Of a DNA stretch of 64,000 nt, positions 12,290-16,974 are shown one piece after another. Source of the stretch: Acidobacteriota bacterium. Lineage in GTDB: Bacteria > Acidobacteriota > Terriglobia > Terriglobales > Acidobacteriaceae. The notes below the pieces were generated by a model that was given only the letters and a program-made list of their open reading frames with translations, did not search any database and was not told where the DNA came from. Within the stretch, counting starts at the first letter, position 1; each line of letters opens with the position of its first letter. Both the position numbers and the translations under genes were made by a program. The stretch is taken from contig JAJXZT010000048.1 in assembly GCA_021779935.1 (NCBI GenBank), forward strand, positions 62,001 to 126,000, read 5' to 3'.

Positions 12290-12730
12290 ATGTTTCGTGG
12301 CAACCATCCAACTCGGGTTGATGAAAAAGGCCGGCTGAAGGTGCCTGCGGAATTTAAGCGCGTAATCGACGAGACGTACAGCGCGAAATTCTACATCACG
12401 AGCCTGGACGGGAAAATTGCCCATGTATATCCCTTCGAGGAATGGGAGCGGATCGAGCAGAAGTTGGCGGGGCTCTCCAATTTCAATCCGACGAAGCGCA
12501 AGCTCTTGAACTTTACGAATTACTTCGGGCAGGTGGTGGAGATGGACGGCCAGGGGCGGTTGTTGGTCCCCGGGCTGCTGCGCGAAGCGGCCAATGTGAA
12601 GGGTGACGTTGCAGTAGTGGGCTTCTTAAATCACCTGGAAGTTCGGGCACTCGCCGACTACCAGCAAGACCTAGAGGCGAACCCGATCACGGCGGAAGAT
12701 GAAAAAGTTCTGGACGAGCTTGGCATCTAG
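12290..12730 (+). CDS. mraZ: Transcriptional regulator MraZ
   Basis: A 146-residue AbrB-fold regulator, the usual length for MraZ. It starts MFRGNHPTRVDEKGRLKVP and has the second half-repeat VEMDGQGRLLVPGLLR, the two SpoVT/AbrB-like modules that assemble into a ring. It binds its own promoter and tunes the dcw cluster. The 170-base leader contains ACCTCCTTTT (12223-12232), which is complementary to Shine-Dalgarno sequences, and two GC hairpins; the ribosome site (GAGGG 11 bases before the ATG) is weak. Its TAG overlaps the GTG start of rsmH by one base. Confidence 0.96.
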   Translation: MFRGNHPTRVDEKGRLKVPAEFKRVIDETYSAKFYITSLDGKIAHVYPFEEWERIEQKLAGLSNFNPTKRKLLNFTNYFGQVVEMDGQGRLLVPGLLREAANVKGDVAVVGFLNHLEVRALADYQQDLEANPITAEDEKVLDELGI

Positions 12731-13692
12731 TGACGGACGGTACGAAGTTAAACAGCAACGAGGGCGCTCCGCGGAGCGCGCATGGCAGAAAGCCGTATGG
12801 CCATGTACCGGTTCTTTTAAAAGAGGCAATCGACTTCCTGGCCGTGAATCGCGGCGGGACCTATATCGATGCCACCCTGGGGCTGGGCGGACACAGTTTC
12901 GAAATCGCAAAGCGCCTCGGCCGACAGGGTCATTTGATTGGCTTCGATAAGGACACGCAAGCGCTGGAAGCGGCACACAAGAGATTGAATGAACCTCCGG
13001 CGGAGTTGAAAGACGACTGGCCGAAGGTGACGCTGCTGCATGCGTCATATGCGGAAGTGGGAGCACAGGTGGAAGCGGGCACGGCCGATGGGCTGATCGC
13101 CGACCTGGGTGTGAGCTCACTGCAAATTGACGATGCGACGCGGGGATTCAGTTTTCAGGCGGAAGGACCGCTCGACATGCGAATGAATTCGCAAGGCGAG
13201 CTGACCGCCGATCAAGTGGTGAACCAGTTCGACGAGCACACACTCGCCGACCTGATTTACGAATACGGTGAGGAAAGGAGGTCGCGGAGAATCGCCAGAG
13301 CAATTGTCCGGGCACGGCCGATAAGAACGACCGCTCATCTAGCACAAGTTGTATCGGCCGCGGCCCGGCCAATGAATTACGGCAAGGGGATTCATCCGGC
13401 GACACTGACTTTCCAGGCGATCCGAATTTGCGTAAATCACGAACTGGACGATCTGAAGGCGCTGCTGGGCGAAACGGGAGCGCGAAGAGTTCTGAAGCAG
13501 GGCGGAAGGCTGGTGGTGATCAGCTTCCACTCGCTGGAAGACCGGATAGTGAAAGACGCACTGCGCGAAGGCTCACGGAATGGGATCTGGGAGATCCTGA
13601 CGAAGAAGCCGGCAGTGGCGGAAGAAGAAGAGAAGAGACAAAACCCGCGTTCGCGGAGCGCAAAGATGAGAGCGGCGATCCGAACGAAGTGA
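12730..13692 (+). CDS. rsmH: 16S rRNA m4C1402 methyltransferase RsmH (MraW)
   Basis: A 320-residue SAM-dependent methyltransferase that N4-methylates C1402 of 16S rRNA. Visible motifs are HVPVLLKEAIDFL at the start of the domain, the SAM-binding DATLGLGGHS near residue 47, DLGVSSLQID near 123, and the C-terminal ISFHSLEDRIVK. It begins with GTG overlapping the mraZ stop, as expected for a coupled dcw gene. After it comes a 118-base gap with DnaA-box-like repeats and a 54-residue ORF before ftsL. Confidence 0.96.
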   Translation: MTDGTKLNSNEGAPRSAHGRKPYGHVPVLLKEAIDFLAVNRGGTYIDATLGLGGHSFEIAKRLGRQGHLIGFDKDTQALEAAHKRLNEPPAELKDDWPKVTLLHASYAEVGAQVEAGTADGLIADLGVSSLQIDDATRGFSFQAEGPLDMRMNSQGELTADQVVNQFDEHTLADLIYEYGEERRSRRIARAIVRARPIRTTAHLAQVVSAAARPMNYGKGIHPATLTFQAIRICVNHELDDLKALLGETGARRVLKQGGRLVVISFHSLEDRIVKDALREGSRNGIWEILTKKPAVAEEEEKRQNPRSRSAKMRAAIRTK

Positions 13693-13748
13693 AAGACGAT
13701 TGCTGAGAGAAATAGTTGTATAGATTTTTCGAAGTATTTTCGCGGCGA

Positions 13749-13778
13749 TGTGGAAAAAGCTGTGGATAGTGTGGATAA
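13749..13778. other. Cluster of DnaA-box-like 9-mers
   Basis: TGTGGAAAA (13749-13757), TGTGGATAG (13761-13769) and TGTGGATAA (13770-13778). The last is an exact reverse complement of the consensus DnaA box TTATCCACA. They follow an AT-rich stretch and precede the 54-aa ORF. Confidence 0.45.
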
Positions 13779-13810
13779 CTCCAGGGCTTCGGTAGGGCCA
13801 AGGAGGCGGC

Positions 13811-13975
13811 ATGTATACGGGAAGAATGATTCACGAACTCATGGCGATGGTGGATGAAGTGCGGGAGCGTGCGGAGCTGCGAGAGCAGGCCGAACTGGAA
13901 TTCAAGTTTTCTCCGCTGGAAGAGATTGAAGCAGAGCAGTGTGAGTACGAGATGGAATTGGCGGGAGTAGCGTAA
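13811..13975 (+). CDS. 54-residue acidic small protein inside the dcw cluster
   Basis: A short frame of 54 residues (MYTGRMIHELMAMVDEVRER..., ending MELAGVA) with no membrane segment, predicted helical and acidic (Glu is the commonest residue). Support for expression is strong: a perfect AGGAGG (13801-13806) sits four bases before the ATG, and its TAA shares a base with the ftsL ATG (TAAATG), the coupling pattern of this operon. I do not recognise a family. Its place between rsmH and ftsL suggests a division-related or FtsL-coupling role, which is inference. Confidence 0.7.
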   Translation: MYTGRMIHELMAMVDEVRERAELREQAELEFKFSPLEEIEAEQCEYEMELAGVA

Positions 13976-14464
13976 ATGTCGATCTGGGTAACAGCGTTGC
14001 CGCAGGTGTTTAGTGGCCGTGCGGAAGCAGAGCAGCAGCAGCCGGTGCGGAAGTATATGCCGGGTGCGCCGGAGATCTATCTTTCGAAGGCGATCGACAA
14101 CACGCGCGTGGTGCGTGTGATGGACAAGGGGCAGCGCCGGGAGATGGTGCTGTTCACGTTCGTGATGTCCGTGTTGTTTGTGCTGGTGATGATGTATCTG
14201 TGGCAGCACTTTGCGGCGATCGAGTATGGCTACAAGATCGAGGCGCTGCGGAACCAGCGGGACAAGGTGACGGACGTCTACAGGACGCTGAAGCTGGAAG
14301 AAGCGACGCTGGAAGATCCGGAACGGATTGACGCGCTGGCCAAGGGCATGGGTTTGCAGACGCCGCAGGTTGGGCAGGTGCAACGGCTGGATTCGACGCC
14401 GAATGGATCGACGACGGCGATGGTGCGAATGTCCGGAATATCCGTGGTATCCATCCCCGACTGA
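13976..14464 (+). CDS. ftsL: Cell division protein FtsL-like
   Basis: A 162-residue bitopic membrane protein. A cytoplasmic tail of about 60 residues precedes one membrane segment (MVLFTFVMSVLFVLVMMYLW, about 61-80), then a periplasmic coiled coil (YKIEALRNQRDKV...LKLEEATLEDPERIDALAKGMGL) typical of FtsL/DivIC proteins, which pair with FtsB and FtsQ to activate FtsWI. Identification rests on topology, the LEEATLEDPERIDALA motif and its place before ftsI. It starts on the last base of the small ORF's stop codon. Confidence 0.85.
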   Translation: MSIWVTALPQVFSGRAEAEQQQPVRKYMPGAPEIYLSKAIDNTRVVRVMDKGQRREMVLFTFVMSVLFVLVMMYLWQHFAAIEYGYKIEALRNQRDKVTDVYRTLKLEEATLEDPERIDALAKGMGLQTPQVGQVQRLDSTPNGSTTAMVRMSGISVVSIPD

Positions 14465-14513
14465 CAAGCGGGAGAAAAGTTTTCGCCGCGCTCCAACCAG
14501 AGGCGGCGGTGGA

Positions 14514-14558
14514 TATGGCGGTCCGAGCAGTTGGGCCCGAGTAGAGTGGACCGCCATA
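14514..14558. repeat. 11-bp inverted repeat between ftsL and ftsI
   Basis: TATGGCGGTCC (14514-14524) and GGACCGCCATA (14548-14558) are perfect arms around a 23-base loop that itself contains GGGCCC. The 209-base ftsL-ftsI gap is unusually long for this operon, and a second GC hairpin lies at about 14633-14655. There is no T-run, so it is not a plain terminator; an operator, attenuator or RNA-processing site is possible. Confidence 0.55.
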
Positions 14559-14673
14559 CCTGTATTAATGTAGATGTGTGACTGCGAGTGAGATTTACGC
14601 CGATATTTTCCTGGTTGCTCAGTTTAGAGTTCTCGCCGGCCGCAATGGCCGCCGGAAGCAGTGGGTTTAGTCG

Positions 14674-16836
14674 ATGGCAGCAGGAGCTACCGCACAGACT
14701 AGCGCGAAGAACCGGCTCGTACTCTTCGGTGTACTGATGTTTCTGTGGGCGTTCGCGATCTGCGGACGCTTGTTCTATCTCCAGGTCTACAAATACGACG
14801 ATTTCGTAAAGATGGCGCAGCGGCAGCAGCAGCGCACGGTGGACGTGACACCGCGTCGCGGCGAGATCTATGACCGCAACGGCCAGGAACTGGCGATGTC
14901 AGTGCTGGTGGATTCGGTGTTTGCGGTGCCAAGCGAGATACCGGACCAGGAGACGACGGCGTCGATCCTGGCGAAGGTGTTGAACGCCGATAAGAACGAT
15001 CTGCTGGCGAGGCTGAAGGCGGGAAAGAATTTTGCGTGGGTGGCGCGCAAGATCGATGCAGACACGGCGGCGCGGATCAAGGCGATGAACCTGCGCGGCA
15101 TCTACTTCGAGAAAGAGCCAAAGCGGTTCTATCCCAAGCGGGAACTGGCGGCGCAGGTGCTGGGATACGTGGGCCTGGATGACGAAGGGCTGGCGGGAAT
15201 CGAACTGCAATACAACAAGGACCTGGCAGGAAAGCCAGGGAAGATGCTGATCACGATGGACGCCCGGCGGAAGTGGTTCGGACGGGTGGAGAAGCAGCCG
15301 GACCCGGGCGAAAACGTGGTGCTGACGATCGACGAGAAGATCCAGTACATCGCGGAGAAAGAGCTGGACCGCGGGATGGAAGATACCAAGGCGATCGCGG
15401 GGACGGTGGTGGTGCAGAATCCGCGGACGGGCGAGATTCTGGCATTGGTAAACCGGCCAACGTTCAATCCGAATATTGCGAAGGAGATTACGCCGGATAC
15501 GCTGAAGGACCACGCGGTGAGCGACATCTATGAGCCGGGATCGGTGTTCAAGACGGTGACATACTCGGCGGCATTCGAGGAGCACCTGGCAAATCCGAAC
15601 GAGATGATGCAATGTTCGCCGGGATATATACGAGTGGGCGGCATCAAGATCGGTGATGCAGAAATGGTTGGACTGGTGCCGCTGGACGAAGCGTTCGCGA
15701 AATCGAGCGACGTGAGCGCGGTAAAGATAGGGCTGAGGCTGGGGCCGGAGCGGTTCTACAAGTACATTCGCGCGTACGGGTTCGGACAGAAGACGGGGAT
15801 CGAGCTGCCCGGGGAGACACGGGGACTGATAAAGCCGCCGAACAGATGGTCGGGATCGTCGATTGGGGCGATGTCGATTGGACAGGAAGTGGGCGTGACG
15901 CCGTTGCAGATTGTGTCGGCGGTGTCGACGATTGCGAACGACGGAGTGTACAACGCGCCGCGGATTGTGGCGGGAGTGACGGAACCGTCGCGGGGATACC
16001 AGCAGGTGGTGTTCCGTCCGCAAGGGCAGCACAGAATCGTTTCGCCGATGACGGCGGCGATCATGAAGCGCTTCATGGAACAAGTGGTGCTGGAAGGCAC
16101 GGCGCGGCGGGCGATCCTGGACGGATACACGTCGGCAGGAAAGACGGGTACGGCGCAGAAGGTCGATCCGAAGACGCACCTGTATTCAAAGTCAAATTAC
16201 ATCGCGAGCTTTGTGGGGTTTGCGCCGGTGAATACGCCGGCGATCACGATTGCGGTGATACTGGATTCTCCGAAGGGACTGCACCAGGGCGGGCAGGTTT
16301 GCGCGCCAATCTGGAAGAGGATTGCACAGCAGGTGCTGGCGTACCTGGACGTACCGCATGACGTGGAGCCGAAAAACGATTATTACCGGCAGCTATTGCG
16401 GGCGGAAGCGCGGCAGACAGACGTGGATGAGGCGGCCCCGCACCCACCCGGAGAGATGGCGGATTTTGGCAGCACGGACAGCGGGACGGCAGCGAGTGTG
16501 CCTGCGGCGTATGGCAGCGGTCACCCGGAAGTGACGGCGGCAACCCTCAAGGACACGAATCGCACGGAGCAGCAGACGGCACCGGCGAGCATCTCACTGG
16601 CGGCGCCGGAGAAAAAAATGCCGCCACACGCGACGGGTTCGGTTGTGCTGGAAGTGGACGGAGGGCAAGCGGTTCCATCCTTCATTGGACAGTCGCTGCG
16701 GCAGGCCGTGCAAACGGCGGAGCAGGCAGGGTTCGAACTGCAAGTGACAGGCAGCGGCGTGGCGCGTGATCAATCTCCGGCTCCGGGGACACGACTGCCC
16801 GCAGGATCGAAAATTGCAGTGAGGTTCACACGATAA
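14674..16836 (+). CDS. ftsI: Peptidoglycan transpeptidase FtsI (class B PBP) with PASTA domain
   Basis: A 720-residue septal transpeptidase that cross-links peptidoglycan with FtsW. One N-terminal membrane segment (about 14-36), a dimerisation region with RRGEIYDRNG, then the transpeptidase domain: Ser290-Val-Phe-Lys293 (EPGSVFKT), Ser344-Ser-Asp346 where most class B PBPs have SxN, and Lys490-Thr-Gly. A Pro/Glu/Thr-rich linker (about 560-645) leads to one C-terminal PASTA repeat (from about 650: VPSFIGQSLRQAVQTAEQAG), as in SpoVD/PBP2x-type proteins. The SxD change may be lineage-specific. It follows the 209-base gap after ftsL. Confidence 0.94.
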   Translation: MAAGATAQTSAKNRLVLFGVLMFLWAFAICGRLFYLQVYKYDDFVKMAQRQQQRTVDVTPRRGEIYDRNGQELAMSVLVDSVFAVPSEIPDQETTASILAKVLNADKNDLLARLKAGKNFAWVARKIDADTAARIKAMNLRGIYFEKEPKRFYPKRELAAQVLGYVGLDDEGLAGIELQYNKDLAGKPGKMLITMDARRKWFGRVEKQPDPGENVVLTIDEKIQYIAEKELDRGMEDTKAIAGTVVVQNPRTGEILALVNRPTFNPNIAKEITPDTLKDHAVSDIYEPGSVFKTVTYSAAFEEHLANPNEMMQCSPGYIRVGGIKIGDAEMVGLVPLDEAFAKSSDVSAVKIGLRLGPERFYKYIRAYGFGQKTGIELPGETRGLIKPPNRWSGSSIGAMSIGQEVGVTPLQIVSAVSTIANDGVYNAPRIVAGVTEPSRGYQQVVFRPQGQHRIVSPMTAAIMKRFMEQVVLEGTARRAILDGYTSAGKTGTAQKVDPKTHLYSKSNYIASFVGFAPVNTPAITIAVILDSPKGLHQGGQVCAPIWKRIAQQVLAYLDVPHDVEPKNDYYRQLLRAEARQTDVDEAAPHPPGEMADFGSTDSGTAASVPAAYGSGHPEVTAATLKDTNRTEQQTAPASISLAAPEKKMPPHATGSVVLEVDGGQAVPSFIGQSLRQAVQTAEQAGFELQVTGSGVARDQSPAPGTRLPAGSKIAVRFTR

Positions 16837-16974
16837 GGCACAAAGGGCGATGAACAGGCGTGCGTTCCAACAGTGGCCTCTCGAGTAAGAACACCCCGGC
16901 GAGAGACTGGGCTCCAGTGGCATAATCATCTGTCGCGCAGTGAAGCAAAGGCTGCGTCAAAAGGTTCCGAGACA

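Follow-up and report, generated by a model that had tools for sequence, protein, structure and literature searches.

A small open reading frame lies between rsmH and the cell-division gene ftsL in the stretch of DNA analysed here (the window, 64,000 nucleotides of the genome of an Acidobacteriota bacterium). It occupies positions 13811 to 13975 of the forward strand, stop codon included, and both the sequence and the list of open reading frames give a product of 54 amino acids that begins with ATG and ends with TAA. The upstream neighbour is rsmH (mraW; 12730-13692, forward strand; PF01795, E 2.6e-95; TIGR00006), and ftsL (13976-14464, forward strand) begins at the first base after the stop codon of the small gene. 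The FtsL product barely passes PF04999 (E 8e-5; 23.0 bits against a gathering score of 22.9) and falls under the NCBIfam cut-off of TIGR02209, the name being supported by the position of the gene within the cluster. With mraZ at 12290, a gene for an ftsI-type transpeptidase at 14674 and, at 16873, a murE-like gene named from its sequence, the surroundings are an ordinary dcw cluster.

A sequence-only reading of this region had already proposed a 54-aa gene between rsmH and ftsL, encoding a short acidic protein, with a perfect AGGAGG and a TAAATG link to ftsL. Each of these points was confirmed. The Shine-Dalgarno sequence AGGAGG is located at 13801-13806 on the forward strand, 4 nt before the ATG, and GGAGG-like sites precede the small genes of the relatives. 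The junction with ftsL reads TAAATG, so that the ATG of ftsL stands at 13976. The composition of the product is acidic, with 14 E and 1 D against 4 R and 1 K. A scan of 13560-14680 for sigma-70-like promoters found none, and our search of the literature for a small gene in the mraW-ftsL interval found nothing.

The rsmH-ftsL stretches of family, order and class relatives were extracted and their small ORFs read out. Judged by gene order, 37 of 40 genera of one family clade (Terriglobales, Acidobacteriota) possess an intact orthologue in the rsmH-ftsL interval; the syntenic ORFs encode 49 to 69 aa, and each ends at ftsL. These 37 orthologues come from about 57 family loci and are all immediately 5' of ftsL. 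The remaining three genera of the clade lack the gene cleanly, no remnant being seen in the syntenic set. The spacer readout revealed no small gene in the family's second clade or in other families, and many Terriglobales are without it. Searches with the single sequence gave weak matches only (E 0.02-1), six of them directly 3' of an independently located rsmH, and a single-sequence scan of genome contigs found no relatives, the gene being too divergent for exact patterns. When a profile built from 38 sequences was searched with E values up to 0.1 accepted, 154 of 398 family genomes gave a match, many at 1e-10 to 1e-21, the weakest matches (E near 0.01-0.1) being probably due to chance. In a phylum-wide sample the same profile detected nothing convincing or at a comparable level outside the family; the weak matches there fall mostly within long ORFs and were regarded as fortuitous. 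Where several MAGs (e.g. G284, G065) had a second copy, this proved to belong to a second dcw cluster from mixed strains. On an RsmH tree (a quick tree with SH-aLRT support only and 28 open forks) the presence of the small gene requires 3 changes, compared with 22.4 when labels are shuffled, a pattern that fits one gain and two losses. The simplest account is a single gain of the small gene in one clade of the family, nearly all members of which have retained it.

For the analysis of coding potential, 110 distinct ftsL-linked copies were gathered from all fetched loci. They encode 48 to 94 aa, mostly 50 to 56, all start with ATG and have in common the N-terminal motif M-[YF]-T-G-T-L-I-[DE]-D-L-[IM]-x-x-V-E-R-A-E. 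At the start of some copies (L044, L161, L264) a five-codon unit is duplicated, as in MYTGT-MYTGT and similar forms. In 42 independent pairs of 60-97% nucleotide identity dN/dS was 0.31 over the whole ORF, with 0.40 for its middle part against 0.19 for codons 1-21, and pN/pS was 0.25 in pairs more than 80% identical. Third codon positions carry 273 of the 432 differences within the N-terminus. The synonymous sites of this part are as free to change as those of the middle (pS 0.45 and 0.47, respectively), which places the N-terminal conservation at the protein level. A stop codon interrupts the +2 frame in 110/110 copies and the +3 frame in 98/110. Since the copies had been found by a profile that requires an open frame, the absence of broken copies was judged from the syntenic set instead, which comprised 37 intact genes, 3 clean absences and no frameshifted copy.

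The G+C-rich DNA of this region also harbours a long antisense ORF (13520-14557), and both features could suggest a spurious reading frame held open by base composition. This explanation is contradicted by the dN/dS values, the codon-position pattern, the conserved ATG, the ftsL junction and the synteny, and we regard its probability as negligible. Its frame being under purifying selection and its place conserved from genus to genus, the small ORF is, on comparative grounds, a genuine lineage-specific protein-coding gene, beyond chance. The earlier proposal that it is probably translated is strongly supported by the conserved frame, dN/dS, the conserved ATG and Shine-Dalgarno sequence and the geometry of coupling to ftsL; a frame that is not conserved, or is shifted among close relatives, would have spoken against it, but the frame is intact in 37 of the 40 genera and the gene cleanly absent from the other 3.

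The 3' end of the gene (13963-13975, forward strand) is dual-coding, as the codons for G-V-A and the stop codon contain the Shine-Dalgarno sequence of ftsL; in the window this is GGGAG (13963-13967), separated from the ftsL ATG by 8 nt. Of the 110 copies, 105 end in G-V-A, G-A-A or E-V-A. Glycine at position -3 is encoded by GGA or GGG in 97/99 copies, in comparison with 95/205 glycine codons in the rest of the ORF (Fisher p 4e-22, an optimistic value as the copies are related), and this codon choice creates a GGAG-like site a short distance upstream of ftsL. In the last three codons pS is lowered to 0.21. The Shine-Dalgarno sequence of ftsL offers the best explanation for the conserved G-[VA]-A at the C-terminus. 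The distance from the end of the stop codon to the ftsL start is 0 or -1 nt in 74 of the 110 copies and between -4 and +4 nt in 107. Adjacent stop and start codons and a downstream Shine-Dalgarno sequence inside the upstream ORF, both observed here, characterize coupled pairs, and from this geometry we infer translational coupling, with the small gene as first cistron and ftsL as second. Ribosomes finishing the small ORF would stop at TAA(A)TG, just past the Shine-Dalgarno sequence in its last codons, and the same terminating ribosomes would then re-start on ftsL.

The conserved N-terminal module (codons 1-21; 13811-13873, forward strand), supported by conservation, dN/dS, helix analysis and AlphaFold, is predicted to form an acidic amphipathic helix. 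The first helix has hydrophobic residues at positions 6, 7, 10, 11, 14, 17 and 21, and its mean hydrophobic moment is 0.487, compared with 0.241 for shuffled helices. The net charge is acidic in 103/110 copies, the net 10 extra acidic residues of the window protein equalling the largest excess seen. AlphaFold modelled the window sequence with helices at 4-32 and 39-50 (pLDDT 71) and a more typical member, supplied with 45 sequences, as one helix at 3-49 (mean pLDDT 82.5, pTM 0.44). There is no transmembrane segment in the small protein, as no 19-residue window is hydrophobic (peak about -0.1). Searches of Pfam, NCBIfam and PDB sequences returned nothing significant or above a curated cut-off, and Foldseek found 0 matches to the window model in the PDB. 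The models predict one acidic amphipathic helix and no membrane span.

The N-terminal module is also found outside the dcw cluster, in genera g7 and g28 only. Four such loci read in their context (L156, L160, L164, L171) follow the gene of an Fnr-like regulator and overlap the convergent gene of a LytTR-type response regulator; the sequence of L175 is similar to theirs, and L158 is placed between a sigma54-type activator and TolC/RND-like genes, the identities of all these neighbours having been read from their sequences. The paralogues have just the N-terminal ~20 residues in common with the dcw copies. Some of them start with TTG and are without a clear Shine-Dalgarno sequence, and some may be decaying copies.

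Two further elements were noticed in the rsmH-ftsL spacer. In the window it contains three DnaA-box-like 9-mers (TGTGGAAAA nnn TGTGGATAG TGTGGATAA) at 13749-13778 of the forward strand, upstream of the small gene; the full sequence is TGTGGAAAAAGCTGTGGATAGTGTGGATAA, and the 9-mers follow each other in steps of 12 and 9 nt. Read on the opposite strand, the third 9-mer is the consensus box TTATCCACA, and the window has no other exact TTATNCACA. Of 80 genomes, 5 have the array (that of the window and G029, G061, G031 and G030), each as a single copy located in the rsmH-ftsL spacer, and its reversed control was found in none of the 80. To judge from the consensus, the array may bind DnaA.

The rsmH-ftsL spacer of many relatives contains a hairpin element of 86 positions with 16 pairs, 13 of which have changed on both sides. 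Its features are a long covarying stem and a conserved GGCGAA loop motif; 97% of cells are paired, in comparison with 85% after shuffling and at most 55% for slid pairings. A covariance model detected it in 22 of 90 genomes, with one match per genome that always lay directly 3' of rsmH (e.g. L037, L039, L036 and L023, and also L057 and L058 of the clade without the small gene), and gave no match in the window's own genome. The hairpin of the relatives had no Rfam match at the gathering threshold, and the window itself gave no match to Rfam. The hairpin is a candidate new structured RNA. The spacers of genera g7 and g28 (e.g. L152, L245, L260) show a recurrent GGGTTCCGTGGTAGGAATCC and hairpin-like stretches before the Shine-Dalgarno sequence of the small gene.

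Taking these data together, we consider it probable, if by no means certain, that the small ORF is a lineage-specific gene, the coupled first cistron of a pair with ftsL, whose product is a soluble acidic microprotein docking on a partner near FtsL. The first ~21 residues would most likely dock on a protein partner as an amphipathic helix. The likeliest partner may tentatively be named as FtsL itself or a cytoplasmic component acting with FtsL, because the microprotein is made right beside FtsL. The TAAATG/TAATG junction with the embedded ftsL Shine-Dalgarno sequence, the variable middle of the ORF and the loss of the whole gene where ftsL has its own ribosome-binding site (clear in two of the clade's three genomes that lack the small gene, of a weaker GGG type in the third, L041) would also suit mainly a translated leader, an upstream ORF that controls the ftsL level by being translated while the peptide is of little importance. 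Such a leader does not account for an N-terminus conserved as protein over synonymous sites that vary freely, nor for the reuse of the N-terminal module at other loci. We find it rather unlikely as the whole explanation; weakened by the protein-level conservation, it may remain an additional role.

The gene had also been suggested to encode a new divisome factor, and its position and coupling fit a divisome role. That it is a clade-specific divisome microprotein, made in lockstep with FtsL, with an N-terminal amphipathic helix binding FtsL or a partner of FtsL and a module that spread into other regulatory loci, is possible but doubtful in this full form. Sister clades divide without the gene, inspection by eye showed no obvious feature of FtsL that tracks its presence, and the existence of a few paralogues next to regulators weakens the case for a role in division alone. 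The same paralogues, beside the Fnr-like regulator and LytTR response regulator and beside the sigma54-type activator, together with the acidic amphipathic helix, could point to a general regulatory microprotein, binding for instance a transcription factor or a protease and merely expressed with ftsL. We judge this quite improbable, as the paralogues are confined to two genera, some have TTG starts and no clear Shine-Dalgarno sequence, several overlap the convergent response-regulator gene, so that some may be decaying, and the dcw copy is the one retained across the clade.

The dcw cluster ranks with the most thoroughly studied and most strongly conserved gene clusters of bacteria. That a protein gene without a library family is established there in some forty sampled genera of a major soil lineage points to a control of FtsL peculiar to this lineage, and the same spacer has two regulatory-looking elements, the RNA hairpin absent from Rfam and the DnaA-box-like array.

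The mraW RNA motif (RF01746), a predicted cis-regulatory RNA listed for Actinomycetales (PMC2864571), is linked to mraW like the spacer hairpin, which differs from it in matching no Rfam family. The small divisome proteins FtsL, FtsB and DivIC are, like the product described here, small, helical and encoded in or near the dcw cluster, but they combine one transmembrane helix with a periplasmic coiled coil, whereas the small protein has no transmembrane segment and matches neither FtsL nor another family. With translated leader ORFs that act by termination-reinitiation coupling the small gene shares a stop codon adjacent to or overlapping the next start codon and a Shine-Dalgarno sequence of the next gene inside the ORF; unlike in such leaders, the N-terminus of its peptide is under protein-level selection.
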